From Candidatus Parcubacteria bacterium (GTDB lineage Bacteria > Patescibacteriota > Patescibacteriia > UBA1558 > GWA2-36-10): a stretch of 10,536 nucleotides of DNA. The stretch spans positions 1 through 10,536 of the forward strand of contig DAOVVF010000009.1 of assembly GCA_030632225.1 (NCBI GenBank), read 5' to 3'. Shown in pieces: positions 2,487 to 9,323 of this stretch. Made by a program: the position numbers and the translations under genes. How positions within the stretch are numbered: position 1 is the first letter of the stretch; every line of letters starts with the position of its first letter. The notes under the pieces were generated by a model. That model saw only the letters and a program-made list of their open reading frames with translations, did not search any database and was not told the origin of the DNA.

Positions 2487-3548
2487 ATGTCATTTTCTTT
2501 AGGTATTGTTGGATTACCTAATGTTGGTAAATCAACATTGTTTCAAGCTTTAACTAAAAACAAGGTAGATGCTTCTAACTACCCTTTTTGTACTATAGAT
2601 CCAAATGTAGGAGTAGTAGCTGTACCAGATCCTAGGCTAGATAAACTAGCTGAACTTTCTAAATCGGAAAAGATTGTTCCAACTACGATTGAATTTGTTG
2701 ATATAGCTGGTTTAGTTAAGGGTGCTGCTGAAGGTGAAGGCTTAGGCAACAAGTTTTTGTCACATATCAGAGAAGTAGATGCTATAGTTCAAGTAATTAG
2801 AAACTTTGAAGACAAGAATGTTACTCATGTATATGGTCAGATTGATCCTGAATATGATAAGGAGATTATAAACACTGAATTAATACTGGCTGATCTAGAA
2901 ACAGTCACTAAACATTTAGATAAAGTTAATAGTAAATTAAAGGGCCCTCAGGATAAAGAACAGATTAAAGAAAAAAATCTGTTGGATAAATTAAAAAAAT
3001 GTTTAGATAACAATCACTTAGTTAGTCAGTTAGAATTAACGGAAGAAGAAAATAAAATAGTTAAGCAGTTAAATCTATTAACTATTAAACCTATCATCTA
3101 TTTATATAATGTAGCTGAAGAAGATTTAAGTAAAGATTTAAAACTAGATGATAATAGTTTATCTGTTTGTGCTAAAGTAGAAGCAGATCTAGCTGATTTA
3201 AATGAACAAGAAGCTAAAGAATATTTAACAGAATTAGGAATTAAAAAAAGCGGTTTAGATAATTTAATTACCACTAGTTACAAATTGCTTAATTTAATTA
3301 CTTTTATAACCACAGGTCCAGAAGAAACTAAAGCTTGGACAGTAGTTAAAGACACTAAGGCTCCTCAAGCAGCTGGTGTTATTCATACAGACTTTGAACA
3401 AGGCTTTATCAGAGCTGAAGTTATTAACTGGGAAGAATTATTAAAAGCTGGTTCTTGGAATAGTGCTAAAGAGGCTGGTCTAATGCGCATGGAAGGTAAG
3501 AACTATATTATCCAAGATGGTGATACGGTTCATTTTCACTTTAATTAG
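2487..3548 (+). CDS. ychF: Redox/ribosome-associated ATPase YchF (OLA1 family)
   Basis: Universally conserved P-loop NTPase of the Obg-related YchF/OLA1 family. Known members bind ribosomes, prefer ATP over GTP and are linked to translation control and stress responses. The 353 residues are close to the usual bacterial length of about 363. The G domain shows G1 GLPNVGKST (9-17), the switch region YPFCTIDPN (32-40), G3 DIAGL (72-76) with a hydrophobic Leu76 in place of catalytic Gln (HAS-GTPase feature), and the family-typical altered G4 NVAE (208-211) instead of NKxD, which explains ATP preference. A coiled-coil insert follows around 130-195, and the C-terminal TGS domain spans about 270-353 with the typical TGPEETKAW and GDTVHFHFN elements. 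It is transcribed alone from a divergent promoter with uvrD. Its TAG interlocks with the stop of the convergent membrane protein gene (8-bp overlap), and a terminator lies about 116 bp further on. Identification is secure. Confidence 0.97.
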   Translation: MSFSLGIVGLPNVGKSTLFQALTKNKVDASNYPFCTIDPNVGVVAVPDPRLDKLAELSKSEKIVPTTIEFVDIAGLVKGAAEGEGLGNKFLSHIREVDAIVQVIRNFEDKNVTHVYGQIDPEYDKEIINTELILADLETVTKHLDKVNSKLKGPQDKEQIKEKNLLDKLKKCLDNNHLVSQLELTEEENKIVKQLNLLTIKPIIYLYNVAEEDLSKDLKLDDNSLSVCAKVEADLADLNEQEAKEYLTELGIKKSGLDNLITTSYKLLNLITFITTGPEETKAWTVVKDTKAPQAAGVIHTDFEQGFIRAEVINWEELLKAGSWNSAKEAGLMRMEGKNYIIQDGDTVHFHFN

Positions 3549-5247
3549 GTAGTTTCCATAATACTTGCTTCTTGTATATATCAATTATTAATGGTTGTGC
3601 GCCTAATTCCTGAGCCTGAGGCCATTTAGTATGACTAATAACATAAGAATAATCTGGTAGCCCTCCTTCTTTACTAAAGAAGGGTTTTATTTTTATATCT
3701 TCAAAATAGAATTGATAGTAAAAATAATTATAGAACCAGGGGAAGAAATACTGAGGAATAGTATTATCATAGGACAATTCTTTAATGTCTGAATTATCAA
3801 TATAATTTAAGATAGTTCTATCTATATCATATGTTCTAACTCTACTATCACTCAAAACTTTTTGATAACTAACCATAGTAAAGATATTAAAAATAATTAA
3901 TAGCAGAAGTAAACCTGCTACAAATCTTATACTAAATAATTTATACAATATTAATAATAGTAAAATAACTACGCCTGATATAAAAGCTATATTGGGCCAG
4001 CCAAAAAAGCTAATTAAAGCATCTATACCAAAAACTTGAACTTCTGTTGCTTTAATAAAAAGAAATTGTTCTTTATCTAACAATAATGTTAGGCCAGTTA
4101 AAAAACCTATTGCTAAAACAGTATATAAAAACTTTCTTTTTTCAGAACTATAATATCTTTTGTAAAACCACACTAAAGCTAGTACTAAATACAAAGCTAG
4201 AAATCCTTCATTGTAACGACCATAGATTAGATAATGAGATCTAGGATGATTATCTGTACCAAAAACAATTAATAAAGAAGCTCCAAAAATAATAAAAGAA
4301 CTAAGTAATAAATAGGTAAAGACTATTGCTTTATTATCTTTAGTAAATATTTTTAATTTAATAATCTTCTTTAAATATCTAAAAAGAAAAAATAGAGCAA
4401 ATAAGAATAATCCGTAAGTAGCTTGTATTAAATATAATAATTGGCCAGAAGCTGCTAAGAACATTCTTCTTAAACTATCTAAAGAAAATAGCTTACTAAA
4501 AATATTAGAATAAGATGCTGGATCTACAAAAGCTATAGCTAATAATTTATTATTCACTAAAATAGTAACTATAACTAGTAAGGTCATAACTAAAAAAGAA
4601 GCTAGAGCTTTACGATAATTAACTTTTTTAATTAAAACTAAAAATATTAAGAAAAGAGTAGAAGCAATAATTATAGCTAAGCCTCTAATATGTACCATGT
4701 ATATAAATCCACTTAGTAAACCAAATAGAATGGCTGTCCAATAACTATCTTTCTTTAAGAATAAAATTAAAGATAATATAATTAAAGCATAAAGAGGTAT
4801 AAAGGCACTTTCTGCCCAAGCTATAGTGCCTGTTAGAATAAATGCAGGATAAAAAGAAGCTAGAAAAGATATTAAAGCAGCTATCTTAATATCTATCTTC
4901 AAAAACCTATAAACAATATAGAACAATATTAAATAAAGAGAGCTTAATAATAAAGCATTAATAACCATTACTGCTGAATAAATATGATCTGGATTAGTAA
5001 ATAGTAAATAAGCTGGTGTTATCAACAAAGAATAACCAAAATGAGCAAAAGCTTGCCCAGTTAATAATATATGATGACCAGTAATAAAATACCTAGCATG
5101 TCCAAGATAAATAAGCTCATCAGCCCAAACTATAGGCTGCTCTATATTTAAATTAAAAAGTAAATGGTAAATAAATAAAATTAAAAAAGGCAGGATAATA
5201 AAGACTAGCCTGTCAAAATTATTAGATCTATTTAACAAATATTTCAT
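3541..5247 (-). CDS. GT-C fold polytopic membrane glycosyltransferase (ArnT/PMT-like)
   Basis: A 568-residue integral membrane protein, probably of the GT-C superfamily, which transfers a sugar from a polyprenyl-phosphate donor to an envelope acceptor on the outer face of the membrane. The first membrane helix (about 14-33) is followed by an extracytoplasmic loop containing WADELIYLGHARYF (41-54), with Asp43-Glu44 matching the GT-C acidic catalytic motif. A second typical element, IAWAESAFIPLY (142-153), follows, then roughly ten further hydrophobic segments and a soluble, aromatic-rich C-terminal domain of about 100 residues. An upstream in-frame ATG at 5289 would add 14 residues, but it lies beyond the likely promoter; ATG 5247 gives the typical cytoplasmic N-terminus. 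It is divergent to a GT2 gene that could make its lipid-linked sugar donor. Its TAA interlocks with the ychF stop. Substrate cannot be predicted. An O-antigen-polymerase-like function is a less likely alternative. Confidence 0.75.
   Translation of the reverse strand: MKYLLNRSNNFDRLVFIILPFLILFIYHLLFNLNIEQPIVWADELIYLGHARYFITGHHILLTGQAFAHFGYSLLITPAYLLFTNPDHIYSAVMVINALLLSSLYLILFYIVYRFLKIDIKIAALISFLASFYPAFILTGTIAWAESAFIPLYALIILSLILFLKKDSYWTAILFGLLSGFIYMVHIRGLAIIIASTLFLIFLVLIKKVNYRKALASFLVMTLLVIVTILVNNKLLAIAFVDPASYSNIFSKLFSLDSLRRMFLAASGQLLYLIQATYGLFLFALFFLFRYLKKIIKLKIFTKDNKAIVFTYLLLSSFIIFGASLLIVFGTDNHPRSHYLIYGRYNEGFLALYLVLALVWFYKRYYSSEKRKFLYTVLAIGFLTGLTLLLDKEQFLFIKATEVQVFGIDALISFFGWPNIAFISGVVILLLLILYKLFSIRFVAGLLLLLIIFNIFTMVSYQKVLSDSRVRTYDIDRTILNYIDNSDIKELSYDNTIPQYFFPWFYNYFYYQFYFEDIKIKPFFSKEGGLPDYSYVISHTKWPQAQELGAQPLIIDIYKKQVLWKLPN
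3664..3694 (+). terminator. Intrinsic terminator for ychF, inside convergent gene
   Basis: A perfect 8-bp stem CCTTCTTT (3665-3672) / AAAGAAGG (3676-3683), loop ACT, extended by a T·G pair (3664/3684), is followed by GTTTTATTTTT. The T-run exists only on the plus strand, so it terminates rightward transcription from ychF. It lies within the 3' coding part of the opposite-strand membrane glycosyltransferase gene. Confidence 0.6.
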
Positions 5248-5256
5248 AGCTATTAT

Positions 5257-5285
5257 TTGTATTTTATAACATATGATAATATAAT
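5257..5285 (+). promoter_or_regulatory. Putative promoter of the glycosyltransferase operon (divergent region)
   Basis: TTGTAT (5257-5262), 17-bp spacer, perfect TATAAT (5280-5285). The start would be near 5292, with a leader of about 19 nt and no Shine-Dalgarno sequence before ATG 5311. The opposite strand has a possible -10 TATAAA (5268-5263) for the GT-C gene, so the 63-bp gap is a divergent promoter region. The AT-richness here makes chance matches likely. Confidence 0.42.
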
Positions 5286-5310
5286 ACAAATACTATACTT
5301 ATATAATAAT

Positions 5311-6267
5311 ATGAATAAAAATCCATACATAGTAGTACAAATACCAGCATATAATGAAGAATCAACTATTTCTGAGGTTATTAAAAATATACCTCATTCT
5401 ATACCAGGAATAGATAAAATATCTATACTGGTTATGAATGATGGTTCTAGTGACAAGACTTCTGAAATAGCTAAACAAGCTGGAGCTGATTATGTTATTT
5501 CTCATAAACAAAACCTTGGTTTAAGTAAAAACTTTCAAAGCGGTTTAAAGCTTTCTCTAAAACTAGGAGCTGATATTATTGTTAATATAGATGGAGACGG
5601 ACAATTTAATGCTCAAGAAATTCCTAATTTAATTAACCCTATATTAAAACAACAAGCTCATGTAGTTATTGGCTCTAGATTTTTAACTAATAGTAAAGAT
5701 GTACCTTTTCTAAAAAGAGTTGGTAATAAATATTTTACTAAACTAATTAATATAATTACTGGTCAAAAATTTACTGATGCTCAATGTGGTTTTAGAGCCT
5801 ATTCAAAAGAAGCTGCTTTACGTCTTAATATATTTGGTAAATTTACTTACACTCAAGAAACCTTAATAGATCTTATAGCTAAAGATTTAATTATTAAAGA
5901 ATCTCCTATTAATGTTGCTTACTTTAAAAATAGACAATCTCATATATCAGGTAATTTAATTAAATATGGTTTTAGGAGTCTAGGACTAATAGCTAATGCT
6001 ACCAGAGATACTAAGCCTTTAGAATTTTTTGGCTGGCCAGGTTTAATAATGTTTTTCCTTGGTTTTTTAGGAGGCTTAACTTCCTTAATCTATTGGATAA
6101 TCTATTTAGCTACTAGCCCTGTTAAAACTTTGCTATTGGTTTCTATCTTTTTAATGACTTTTGGCATGCTATTAATAATCTTTGGTCTTTTAGCTGATAT
6201 GATTAAGAGAGTTAAAAAAACTCAGGAAGAAATACTTTATAGAATAAAAAAGAATAAACATGAATAG
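5311..6267 (+). CDS. GT2 family glycosyltransferase, polyprenyl-phosphate sugar synthase type, membrane-anchored
   Basis: A 318-residue GT-A fold enzyme resembling dolichyl/polyprenyl-phosphate hexose synthases (DPM1/GtrB type). It would load a nucleotide-activated sugar onto a lipid phosphate at the inner face of the membrane. Visible motifs are the N-terminal VQIPAYNEE (9-17), VMNDGSSDKT (41-50), the metal-binding DGDGQF (94-99, Asp94 and Asp96), GSRF (121-124) and the family element DAQCGFRAYSKEA (156-168). Two membrane segments follow at about 240-265 and 272-296, then a basic tail. ATG 5311 is chosen over the TTG at 5257 because the GT2 domain starts at once and the likely promoter lies between them. 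It is the first gene of a three-gene operon, overlapping the next gene by 8 bp. The divergent GT-C membrane enzyme is the natural consumer of its product, an inference from context. The sugar is unknown. Confidence 0.9.
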   Translation: MNKNPYIVVQIPAYNEESTISEVIKNIPHSIPGIDKISILVMNDGSSDKTSEIAKQAGADYVISHKQNLGLSKNFQSGLKLSLKLGADIIVNIDGDGQFNAQEIPNLINPILKQQAHVVIGSRFLTNSKDVPFLKRVGNKYFTKLINIITGQKFTDAQCGFRAYSKEAALRLNIFGKFTYTQETLIDLIAKDLIIKESPINVAYFKNRQSHISGNLIKYGFRSLGLIANATRDTKPLEFFGWPGLIMFFLGFLGGLTSLIYWIIYLATSPVKTLLLVSIFLMTFGMLLIIFGLLADMIKRVKKTQEEILYRIKKNKHE

Positions 6268-7369
6268 AGATATAAAAATTTCTATGTTAAGCACTCTTCC
6301 TCCTATCAAGGGCATAAGTGACTACACTTTAGGATTAATACAAGCTCTATCTAAAAAATGTGAAATAGATTTTTATGGATTTAAAAGTATCTACCCAGAA
6401 TTTTTATATCCTGGTAGTACAAAAACTAATAAAAAAGAGCCACAAATAAACAACGTATATATTCATAATTATTTAACTTGGTACAATCCTTTATCCTGGA
6501 TAAAAACTGGTTTGACTATTAAAACCAAAATGTTACATGTCCAATCTTGGAGCTGGATTCTAGCTCCTATGTTTTTAGTTATTCTATCTATAGTTAGATT
6601 AAGAAAAAAAATTGTAATTATGACTGTACATAATATAAAGCCCCATGAAAGAAGTATTATTAGAAATTTTTTAAACAAATGTACATTTAAACTAGCTAAT
6701 AAATATATTGTCCATTCTAATAATAACAAAAAAATATTTTTAAAAGAATACGAGACTAACAAAAAAATTTATGTTGTTCCAATGGGTATAATTGAAATGG
6801 AAAAATCTGAATTATCTAAAAACTTTTTAAGAGAAAAATATGGTTTTAATATTAAAGATAATATTTTATTATTCTGGGGAAATATAAGAGAATACAAAGG
6901 ACTAGATATTCTTTTAAAAGCATTAGCCAAAATTAAAGACAAAAAAATAAAGTTAATAATAGCTGGGAAGGCCTGGGGGAACTTTAAAGATTATCAAAAT
7001 ATAATTGATCAATTTAATTTAAAAGAAAGGATTAGATTATATTTAGAATTTATTCCCGACAAAAAATTAGCAGAAATAATTAAGTTGTCAGATGTATGTA
7101 TTTTTCCTTATAAAAAATTTGAAGCGTCTAGTGCCTCTCTTATGGCATCTCTACACTATCGAAAACCTGTAATTGTTACTGATGTTGGTGGTTTAAGTGA
7201 AGTACTAGAAAATAAAAATTTTGTAGTTAAGGCAAATGATCCTATTGATTTAAAAGAAAAAATAATAAAAATATTTGAAAATCCAAATAAAAACTATTCA
7301 GAAAATATAACGGAAAAATTCAGTTGGCATAATATCATTAATAACCTATTAAAAATTTATGAATGCTAA
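6260..7369 (+). CDS. GT4 family glycosyltransferase (GT-B fold)
   Basis: A 369-residue GT-B fold retaining glycosyltransferase, probably adding a sugar to a surface glycan or glycolipid from a nucleotide-sugar donor in the cytoplasm. The N-terminal acceptor domain begins MLSTLPPIKGISDYTLGL (9-26) with the usual glycine-rich loop. A hydrophobic patch at 99-113 may touch the membrane. The C-terminal donor domain shows FWGNIREYKGLDILLKAL (205-222), KLIIAGKAWG (231-240) and the phosphate/nucleotide-binding region KPVIVTDVGGLSEVLE (302-317). In the EX7E motif the first Glu is kept (Glu288) but the second position is Ala296, as in some GT4 subgroups. It starts within the GT2 stop (8-bp overlap, ATGAATAG) and ends overlapping the methyltransferase by 11 bp, so the three are translationally coupled. 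It is more Lys/Asn-rich and AT-rich than flanking housekeeping genes, common for glycan loci. Specificity is unknown. Confidence 0.88.
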   Translation: MNRDIKISMLSTLPPIKGISDYTLGLIQALSKKCEIDFYGFKSIYPEFLYPGSTKTNKKEPQINNVYIHNYLTWYNPLSWIKTGLTIKTKMLHVQSWSWILAPMFLVILSIVRLRKKIVIMTVHNIKPHERSIIRNFLNKCTFKLANKYIVHSNNNKKIFLKEYETNKKIYVVPMGIIEMEKSELSKNFLREKYGFNIKDNILLFWGNIREYKGLDILLKALAKIKDKKIKLIIAGKAWGNFKDYQNIIDQFNLKERIRLYLEFIPDKKLAEIIKLSDVCIFPYKKFEASSASLMASLHYRKPVIVTDVGGLSEVLENKNFVVKANDPIDLKEKIIKIFENPNKNYSENITEKFSWHNIINNLLKIYEC

Positions 7370-8051
7370 GGTAAAAAAATTTGTGGTTGACAAAAATAGA
7401 TACCTAAAAGCACAGAAAATCCAAGAAGTGATTAAAGACTACAATAAAAAAGAATTAGAAGGCTTAAGAATTTTAGATATTGGAACTGGCAACGGAGAGA
7501 TTGCTGATTTTTTTAGTAATAAAAATCAAGTATATTCTGTGGATGTTATAGATCAAAGAAAAAATAAGAATGAAAAAATTATTTTTAAAATAGTACAATC
7601 AGAAGTATTGCCATTTAATAACAATTTCTTTGATATAATTATATCTAATCATACTATTGAACACTTGCCTTGCTCTACAAAACACCTAGCAGAAGTACAT
7701 AGAGTTTTAAATTCTGAAGGAATTATCTATTTAGCTACTCCTAATAGACTATTTCCATGGGAAACACATTATAATATGTTTCTTTTACATTATTTCCCCT
7801 TAAGTTTCTTTCACTTGATACTTAAGTTTTTTAAAAAATATAAGGAAGATATATATTTACTTTCTTATTTTCAATTAAAAAAATTAATTAAGTATTCTAA
7901 CTTTCAATTTAAAGAATATACTCCCTATATTTTAAAATATCCTGATAAATATTTTTTTAATTTGAAGTTTATGAGATTCTTTCCGCTAAATCTACTAGAT
8001 AAATTAAACTTCATATCTCAAACTAATATTTTTATACTAAAGAAAAGATAA
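7359..8051 (+). CDS. Class I SAM-dependent methyltransferase (Methyltransf_11 type)
   Basis: A 230-residue Rossmann-fold methyltransferase. Motif I is RILDIGTGNGE (37-47), the acidic ribose-binding residue is probably Asp62 in YSVDVID (59-65), and the Methyltransf_11 elements are EVLPFNNNFFDIIISNHTIEHL (82-103, with LPF and the NHTIEHL block) and EVHRVLNSEGIIYLATPN (112-129). The C-terminal 100 residues are rich in Phe, Tyr, Lys and Leu and may form a membrane-facing or acceptor-binding part. It begins inside the last codons of the GT4 gene (11-bp overlap), so it is the third gene of the operon. The context suggests it methylates a sugar or lipid-linked glycan, for instance as a capping step; this is inference. 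A small-molecule or quinone methyltransferase is possible but less consistent with the neighbours. An apparent strong promoter begins only 5 bp after its stop. Confidence 0.87.
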   Translation: MNAKVKKFVVDKNRYLKAQKIQEVIKDYNKKELEGLRILDIGTGNGEIADFFSNKNQVYSVDVIDQRKNKNEKIIFKIVQSEVLPFNNNFFDIIISNHTIEHLPCSTKHLAEVHRVLNSEGIIYLATPNRLFPWETHYNMFLLHYFPLSFFHLILKFFKKYKEDIYLLSYFQLKKLIKYSNFQFKEYTPYILKYPDKYFFNLKFMRFFPLNLLDKLNFISQTNIFILKKR

Positions 8052-8056
8052 AAAAC

Positions 8057-8085
8057 TTGATTTTTATTAAAATATATGCTATAAT
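8057..8085 (+). promoter_or_regulatory. Strong extended -10 promoter with no downstream gene on its strand
   Basis: TTGATT (8057-8062), an exact 17-bp spacer, and a perfect TATAAT (8080-8085) preceded by TGC (8077-8079), the extended -10 element. This is the best promoter in the window. Predicted start is about 8092. No ORF follows on the plus strand before the terminator at 8258-8307, which points to a non-coding transcript. Confidence 0.68.
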
Positions 8086-8144
8086 ACTAATATCATATAG
8101 TTCTCTCCAATAAATTCTTTAAAATAAAATTATTAAAATCAACT

Positions 8145-8166
8145 AAAAAGTGCTCTGAAAAAGCAC
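8145..8166 (-). terminator. Weak intrinsic terminator for queH-queA
   Basis: Read on the minus strand, GTGCT (8166-8162), loop TTTTCAG, AGCAC (8154-8150) is followed by TTTTT (8149-8145). The stem can extend past one mismatch by two A-T pairs. It lies about 120 nt beyond the queA stop. The 5-bp stem is short, so it may be only a modest terminator; the same hairpin folds in the opposite-strand RNA. Confidence 0.4.
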
Positions 8167-8257
8167 ATTCAAGTAAGAAAAATAAATAGTTGGTTTAATA
8201 ACCTATTTAAAGACAAAAATCGTACAATACAAAAGCAAAAATGAACACAGAGGTCTA

Positions 8258-8307
8258 AGAGACTCTATTTATCCTCCTTGGGGCAGGTTTAATGGGGTCT
8301 CTTTTTT
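8258..8307 (+). terminator. Intrinsic terminator, plus strand
   Basis: AGAGACTC (8258-8265) pairs with GGGTCTCT (8295-8302). The stem continues with T·G, A-T, T-A, T-A and, after two T/T mismatches, CCT (8273-8275) / AGG (8285-8287); the loop is 9 nt. Six Ts (8302-8307) follow. Two pairs are G·U on plus but would be C/A mismatches on minus, and there is no minus T-run, so it works rightward. Its 3' arm lies in the last codons of queA. Confidence 0.72.
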
Positions 8308-9323
8308 ATATACATAGCATCGCCAAAGGAATAGAATCTGTATTTCTGCTTAATAGCTTTCTGATAAGTATCTAAAATTAACTTTCTACCTGCTAAAGCA
8401 GAAATCATAAACAGTAAAGAACTCTTTGATAGATGAAAGTTAGTAATCAAGTCATTAACAAATTTAAATTTGTAACTAGGGTAGATATAGATACCTACCC
8501 ACTTACTGCCTGAATTTAATTTTCCTTTAGCACTAAAAGCTTCTAAAGCTCTAGCAGTAGTTGTTCCGACAGTTATTATATTCTTACCTTGTGATTTTAA
8601 TTTGTTTAACTCTCTAGCAGTCTTAATATCAATACTAGCCCACTCATGATGAATCTTATGCTTAGTAATATCATCTACTGTGACTGGTTCAAAGGTACCT
8701 AGTCCTATATGCAAAATAATTTTAAAAATCTTTACACCTTTAGCTTTTAACTTTGCTATCAGCTGAGGACTAAAGTGTAAACCAGCAGTTGGTGCTGCTA
8801 CTGACCCCTTACTCTTAGCGTAGACTGTCTGGTATCTTTGTCTAACTGACTGGCTATCTTTGGTCTTTATATACGGCGGAATTGGTGTACAACCAATTTG
8901 TTCAATAATTCTGTCCAGCTCTTTGCCAGACTTGTTAAACTTAATTTGCCACACTTTAGCATCTATATCTTTGACTATAGTTGCTTCCAATTTTTTCTTG
9001 AAATAAATCTTGTCTTTTACTTTTAAATTACGTCCGCCAATCATTACTTGCCAGGTATTACTATTAACTTTTTCTGTTAACAATATTTCTATCTTACCGC
9101 CTGTTAATTTTTTTCCAAACAACCTAGCTGGTATAACTTTAGTTTGATTAACAACCAATACATCGTTACTAGTTAAAATATTTTCTAAATCAGTAAAGTG
9201 TTTATGCTGAACTTTTTTTGTTTTAACATCTAAAATTAACAACTTAGATTTATCACGTTGCTTAAGTGGTTTTTGAGCAATTAACTTTGCTGGTAGATTA
9301 TAATTAAATAAATTAAGTTTCAT
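8289..9323 (-). CDS. queA: S-adenosylmethionine:tRNA ribosyltransferase-isomerase QueA
   Basis: Transfers and isomerises the ribosyl part of SAM onto preQ1 in the wobble position of tRNAs with GUN anticodons, forming epoxyqueuosine. At 344 residues it is close to E. coli QueA (356). Family motifs are FNYNLPAKLIAQKPLKQRD (6-24), NQTKVIPARLFG (59-70), SVAAPTAGLHFS (174-185), HIGLGTFEPV (205-214), GTTTARALE (253-261), TNFHLSKSSLLF (294-305) and FYSFGDAM (330-337). A longer frame would start at 9389, but the extra 22 residues only read through queH. ATG 9323 gives the canonical N-terminus and overlaps the queH end by 11 bp (ATGAAACTTAA), so translation is coupled to queH. The last residues KKRPH extend a little past the usual end and are encoded by the 3' arm of the opposite-strand terminator. 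Identification is secure. Confidence 0.97.
   Translation of the reverse strand: MKLNLFNYNLPAKLIAQKPLKQRDKSKLLILDVKTKKVQHKHFTDLENILTSNDVLVVNQTKVIPARLFGKKLTGGKIEILLTEKVNSNTWQVMIGGRNLKVKDKIYFKKKLEATIVKDIDAKVWQIKFNKSGKELDRIIEQIGCTPIPPYIKTKDSQSVRQRYQTVYAKSKGSVAAPTAGLHFSPQLIAKLKAKGVKIFKIILHIGLGTFEPVTVDDITKHKIHHEWASIDIKTARELNKLKSQGKNIITVGTTTARALEAFSAKGKLNSGSKWVGIYIYPSYKFKFVNDLITNFHLSKSSLLFMISALAGRKLILDTYQKAIKQKYRFYSFGDAMYIKKRPH

Follow-up and report, generated by a model that had tools for sequence, protein, structure and literature searches.

A 216-nt RNA that to all appearances belongs to no described family is predicted on the plus strand at positions 8092 to 8307 of the 10,536-nucleotide stretch analyzed here (the window), from the positions of a promoter and a terminator and from its homologues. 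Homologues occur in 19 of the 21 genomes of the window's taxonomic family, 18 of them recovered by a covariance model (R1, below) and the window copy by blastn. The promoter and the helices are kept in these relatives, covariation included, which supports the original prediction of an undescribed, stand-alone structured RNA at this site. By sequence comparison, the RNA would be a member of a new family that has no counterpart in Rfam and that, as known, is confined to one taxonomic family.

In its genome (727 kb; estimated completeness, 83%), the window makes up contig C86, and the genes around the RNA include those for QueA, QueH, YchF, UvrD, a methyltransferase, and glycosyltransferases. A gap of 237 bp, without any ORF of at least 40 amino acids, separates the stop of the methyltransferase gene (8051) from the end of queA at 8289 (gene, 8289 to 9323, minus strand, from the open reading frame list and annotation). 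The size of this gap and the lack of such an ORF agree with its earlier description as a noncoding stretch, but the label "noncoding" is doubtful, as the 3' arm of the RNA carries a conserved micro-ORF. A motif scan finds the proposed promoter at 8057 to 8085 on the plus strand (score, 10/12), with TTGATT, a 17-nt spacer, and TATAAT preceded by TG, giving the extended -10 element TGCTATAAT and a predicted start near 8092. The same TGCTATAAT is carried at the extended -10 position by the G020 copy, and all 18 listed copies have an extended -10 (TGN plus TATAAT, TATACT, or TATTAT) whose distance to a downstream GUUC-type element is 12 to 15 nt. As promoter-like sites are no commoner in the whole window than in shuffled versions of it (53 against 58.8 expected), the promoter by itself is no proof of an RNA gene.

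An intrinsic terminator, also part of the original prediction, is clear on folding of the plus strand at about 8257 to 8307, where a hairpin with UUGGGGC in its loop is followed by six T's; the motif scan omits it because that scan accepts only loops of 3 to 8. All 18 listed copies have a terminal hairpin, 13 of them with a good T tract and five, by reading, with a poor one (G001, G008, G012, G013, and G017). GGGGC is found in 12 of 19 downstream stretches and GGGC in 16, the terminator GGGC being absent from the other 3. Since the final codons of the convergent queA overlap the terminator (8289 to 8307), the two transcripts would converge with overlapping ends. The locus thus has the features of the small RNA (sRNA) class, namely, a promoter and a terminator of its own with no gene between them and a conserved secondary structure.

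The 19 copies share an anatomy that consists of the extended -10 element, a rod (helices P2a and P2b), an apical hairpin, a one-sided A-rich loop, a 3' arm, and the terminal hairpin. From folding and covariation, P2a in the window pairs 8116 to 8123 with 8206 to 8213, and P2b pairs 8130 to 8145 with 8187 to 8201. P2b is the 13-pair long-range helix (8131 to 8144 with 8188 to 8200) noted at the outset, which proves to be real and to covary through the family. The apical hairpin, P2c (8150 to 8166), is found at the same place in all 18 copies compared, though its letters differ. It is followed by the unpaired A-rich loop (8167 to 8186), which over 18 copies is 73% A and measures 12 to 22 nt on the 3' side against about 5 nt on the 5' side, and which adjoins the most conserved helix end. 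An apical hairpin with an unpaired A-rich tail is present in 18 of 18 copies tested, compared with 0.28 expected from mononucleotide shuffles, with anchors and thresholds that were chosen after the sequences had been seen. At the 5' end, the GUUC element (8100 to 8103) may pair with GAAC at 8243 to 8246 as a closing helix of 4 bp, P1; its pairing is above that of linker shuffles, yet swapping partners between genomes yields equally many pairs, and P1, for which covariation support is absent, is tentative. In one copy (G020; L034/L044), the linker between rod and 3' arm is interrupted by some 160 nt bounded by terminal inverted repeats (AGACCTGTTGCATAATAA..), an insert that resembles a MITE.

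Covariation in the rod was assessed in two alignments, with a family structure obtained from these very sequences by RNAalifold and a scan for helices. In a plain MAFFT alignment, 82% of rod cells pair, and double-change cells number 31, compared with 12.9 in shuffles and 11 to 18 when the alignment is slid. Ten pairs are changed on both sides there, a weaker result, as 37 of 500 shuffles and one slid version also reach this count. In the model-fitted alignment, which is biased towards its own structure, 87.7% of cells pair, double-change cells number 46 (compared with 13.1), and of the 17 rod pairs, 14 have a change on each side. The local hairpin at 8183 to 8209, which was thought to compete with the long helix, can form in the window and is unconserved, with six of its seven pairs present in only 5 to 7 of 16 to 18 sequences; a conformational switch between the two is rejected for this reason.

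The plus-strand RNA of the window folds at -42.6 kcal/mol (z = -3.78; minus strand, z = -1.50). Over 18 cores without the terminator, the mean folding z is -2.03 on the plus strand and -1.89 on the minus strand, so that folding energy over the copies fails to choose a strand and the earlier argument from wobble pairing carries little weight. It is the promoter, the terminator, and the 3' arm that set the strand.

With the window region as the blastn query and 53 genomes as the target, three longer alignments (107 to 136 bp) were obtained to the same part of the region, all within the window's family (G018, E = 1.7e-7; G010, E = 2.5e-4; G007, E = 1.3e-3); many matches of comparable E-value are short AT-rich stretches and were left out. 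Used as a DNA query, the G010 copy matched 10 of the 21 family genomes at an E of 0.001, among them G014; that match was discarded, as it extends over nothing but promoter-like letters that precede another gene. Six seed copies, the window's not among them, went into model R1, which represents 71 nt of the 3' part as a covariance model. Searched in 36 genomes of the order, it found credible copies in 18 of the 21 family genomes, 12 of them beyond the seeds, while missing the window copy. Weaker second R1 matches within the family are excluded from the counts; on reading, those at L064 to L066 have neither promoter nor rod. Each of the 12 newly found copies has an extended -10 promoter upstream, and the rod is present in the 11 that were folded (all but G020). 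The two family genomes in which the RNA was missed have assembly reasons for it, as queA was not found in G014 and the contig ends inside queA in G015.

Model R2 covers the whole core (144 positions; 18 sequences) and was searched in 380 genomes of the class under strict prefilters, with 8 candidates scored per listed genome. It recovers the window copy, which was among its building sequences, and matches 17 of the 19 family members drawn, the two without a match being G014 and G015. Outside the family, 2 of 361 genomes have weak matches (E = 0.04 and 0.08), and the best outside match in a slower search of 34 genomes, 15 of them from outside the family, has an E of 0.05 (G030). These matches, in G148, G175, and G030 (the last being the one read from the slower search, whose other weak matches lie above an E of 0.2), are without promoter, rod, or 3' arm and look coding, as does G030, or due to chance. 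Neither the 380-genome class scan nor the slower search of 34 genomes thus yields a credible copy outside the window's family. A pattern scan of named genomes matched four records, three from Candidatus Komeilibacteria and one from Candidatus Parcubacteria. As judged from these searches, the range seems limited to one family, with diverged copies possible elsewhere, and a core cellular role is therefore unlikely.

The genomic position of the RNA is fixed in 12 of 13 family genera compared. In all 19 copies, queA lies convergently downstream; no ORF of at least 60 amino acids intervenes in 16, and one or more do in G007, G011, and G016. Upstream of 11 of the 19 copies, ychF is found in the same orientation (including those of G020, G016, and the window, the last with four genes between), the other 8 having no ychF within the flank examined. 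Membrane-protein/glycosyltransferase-like genes separate ychF from the RNA both in the window (3541 to 8051) and in G016 (L135, 4257 to 9862). Because genes are inserted beside the RNA in G007, G011, and G016 and upstream of it in the window, the RNA appears independent of any immediate neighbor. In a related family of the same order (f4), ychF and queA are convergent, only about 20 to 158 bp separating the match ends (G023, G026, G028, and G031), and the RNA was not found between the two genes in these four genomes. The QueA tree places 20 family members on one side of one branch and f4 on another. These comparisons are most simply read as an origin of the RNA gene at the base of the family, or its retention only there.

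Downstream of the rod, the family has a conserved 3' arm, ACAAUUGAAU..ACAUGGAAGU. In the window, the aligned arm (8224 to 8254, plus strand) has diverged from the consensus ACAAUUGAAUAU..ACAUGGAAGU to ACAAUACAAAA..ACACAGAGGU. We take ACAUGGAAGU to resemble a CsrA site; the window, G012, and G017 no longer have the GGA of this CsrA-like motif. Frame analysis of the plus strand reveals a putative micro-ORF at 8241 to 8258 (ATG AAC ACA GAG GTC TAA, MNTEV). A closed frame of 4 to 7 codons (e.g., MEVF-stop) is found in 17 of 19 genomes against a shuffle mean of 0.31, a control that is soft because shuffling destroys the motif. In the GAA-GUN frame, a stop falls within codons 3 to 6 in 16 of 19 genomes, with counts of 0 and 0 for the other two frames; an AUG no more than 15 nt upstream of the conserved GAAGU (or a variant) is in frame in 18 genomes, again with 0 and 0 in the other frames. 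All three stop codons are used, and in most copies the stop is found at the stem base of the terminator. That it coincides with the border of the U-rich and A-rich stretches before the terminator counts against a coding frame.

The window and G011 have lost the usual AUG and have an in-frame AUG two codons upstream (MNTEV and MYTEVL), a shared shift that may be a single event. G010 and G016 have GUG plus an in-frame AUG upstream. Against the frame, an AUG is missing from G012, which in the QueA tree forms the deepest family branch, and a nearby stop is missing from G009. No Shine-Dalgarno-like word precedes the usual start in any of the 19 copies, and AUGGAAGU may be conserved as an RNA motif rather than as codons. 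Going by the frames, we regard actual translation of the micro-ORF as a real possibility, if the less probable outcome.

With modest confidence, we consider it probable that the gene encodes a stand-alone sRNA, of a new lineage-specific family, that acts as a trans-acting regulator through its 3' arm. RNA polymerase would start near 8092 and stop at the T run; the rod would stabilize the RNA, its A-rich face perhaps serving to bind a protein, and the single-stranded arm (ACAAUUGAAU..ACAUGGAAGU) would form the working end together with the GGGC-bearing terminator. Action in trans would then come about through pairing of the 3' arm with other RNAs, through ribosomes engaging the micro-ORF, or both. 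Pairing with the start regions of the neighboring genes gives no signal (queA, mean z = -0.04 in 15 genomes; ychF, mean z = 0.06 in 4 genomes), which fits action in trans. For the queA start region, the window alone scores z = -3.39; as the 14 other genomes do not follow, this target was rejected. The RNA is like bacterial trans-acting sRNAs in having its own promoter, an intrinsic terminator, and a single-stranded conserved arm, in being intergenic, and in occurring in one lineage. Its long covarying rod, A-rich one-sided loop, and micro-ORF at the terminator have no match among the families of Rfam.

A more specific form of this reading, which we put forward tentatively and think somewhat improbable, is that the working end is the conserved micro-ORF of 4 to 7 codons itself (M..EV(F/L/Y)-stop), translated without a Shine-Dalgarno sequence at the terminator, as a ribosome-engaging minigene and/or as part of a translation-gated terminator. 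We know of no described family with this architecture, a structured RNA that ends in a micro-ORF at its own terminator. Leader-peptide attenuators of the trp and tna type also have a very short ORF beside an intrinsic terminator. Unlike in those attenuators, the ORF here follows a long structured RNA, and in most copies no codirectional gene lies after the terminator.

Comparison with Rfam 15 supports the view that the RNA is undescribed, as no match touches 8057 to 8307 at an E of up to 10, and scans of the window and the homologue loci give nothing above the gathering cutoff at the RNA. On the RNA strand, only L10_leader overlaps a copy, that of G003, and it does so at chance level (29.1 bits; cutoff, 44; E = 0.82). 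The earlier remark that hallmarks of tmRNA, RNase P RNA, and signal recognition particle (SRP) RNA are missing is borne out by the models for the first two, whereas SRP RNA is disfavored only. For tmRNA (RF00023), ARAGORN finds none in the window and Rfam none at the site; above-cutoff tmRNA matches lie elsewhere in 17 of 21 family genomes, the exceptions being the window's 83%-complete genome, G009, G018, and G020. RNase P RNA (RF00010) has no match at the site; 19 of 21 family genomes have it above the cutoff at another place, the window's genome (G000:C77) among them. At 596 to 686 of the window, on the minus strand, there is a subthreshold match to n00280 (44.1 bits; cutoff, 65.2; E = 9.4e-5), an sRNA known from within a helicase gene; as this match lies in the window's uvrD-like helicase gene, it is probably shared coding sequence.

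Among the alternatives to a trans-acting sRNA, the one that survives best, though we judge it unlikely, is a rod RNA that binds RNA polymerase or another protein, as a counterpart of 6S RNA or of mycobacterial Ms1, with the A-rich loop as the contact. The window RNA is like 6S RNA (RF00013) and Ms1 in being a stand-alone rod of about 200 nt with an internal loop, and the A-rich loop, conserved and adjoining the helix end of highest conservation, would suit such a contact. 6S RNA has a large central bubble that is open on both strands, whereas the loop here is one-sided in all 18 folded copies; with no model match in addition, identity with 6S RNA itself is rejected. The single-stranded conserved 3' arm with its putative micro-ORF is a further difference from 6S RNA and would be left without explanation. 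In 21 of 21 family genomes, the RNA site included, 6S RNA goes undetected (6 of 14 control genomes match), which would favor this alternative, but as the search used one model only, this absence is weak evidence. Ms1, in the available portion of PMC4191392, provides a precedent for an RNA polymerase-binding RNA that is a lineage's own.

Alternatively, the micro-ORF could gate the terminator, in that ribosomes on it would cover the terminator's first arm and cause read-through antisense to queA. The stop codon at the stem base in most copies and the invariant convergent queA suit this mechanism. An ORF of at least 60 amino acids lies between RNA and queA in 3 of 19 copies (G007, G011, and G016), the micro-ORF is putative, and queuosine-type codons, at 11 of 73 codons after the start by hand count, show no clear enrichment, all of which argues against it and makes such gating quite improbable.

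A strongly diverged SRP RNA is more improbable still. SRP RNA models RF00169 and RF01854 match in 0 of 21 family genomes, the window site included, which would favor this reading; however, SRP RNA goes just as undetected in 32 genomes from outside the family, in which the window RNA is not found either, and its lack therefore does not single out the window RNA. With the small bacterial model of Rfam, all 53 genomes (G000 to G052, made up of the window's family, f1, and 32 others of the order and class) are without a match to an E of 1 and 13 of 14 controls match, meaning that SRP RNA in G000 to G052 is either very diverged or lost. SRP RNA has a conserved GNRA-capped hairpin with conserved internal loops. 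No such conserved hairpin is present in the family RNA, whose apical loops vary in length and letters over 18 copies. Finally, a chance promoter and hairpin in nonfunctional AT-rich DNA, which the abundance of promoter-like sites in shuffled windows might suggest, is contradicted by conservation, covariation, and the fixed locus across genera and is hardly credible.

The RNA resembles candidates from comparative genomics, which in the portions available of PMC2864571, PMC8632094, and PMC8040213 are intergenic, covarying, and without assigned function; it differs from them in that no Rfam 15 family reaches its cutoff at the window RNA. Parcubacteria, Patescibacteria, and candidate phyla are not mentioned in the available part of PMC8632094, and that of PMC12045711, on TIGR-Tas, concerns guide-RNA arrays. 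Among the literature matches listed for small or structured RNAs in Komeilibacteria, Patescibacteria, and the Candidate Phyla Radiation, there is no such RNA, and no regulatory small RNA from the Candidate Phyla Radiation is described in the matches listed. A 2024 perspective on Patescibacteria (PMC11665869) states, in the part available, that differentiation mechanisms are completely unknown and that regulation of translation is likely to be key; noncoding or small RNA goes unmentioned in that part.

An RNA gene present in 19 of 21 family genomes, and missing only where the locus is unassembled, offers a concrete entry point to regulation in Patescibacteria. Related genomes that have the same site without the RNA make its origin datable. 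If the micro-ORF is translated, the family would represent a new architecture, in which a structured RNA ends in a minigene at its own terminator.
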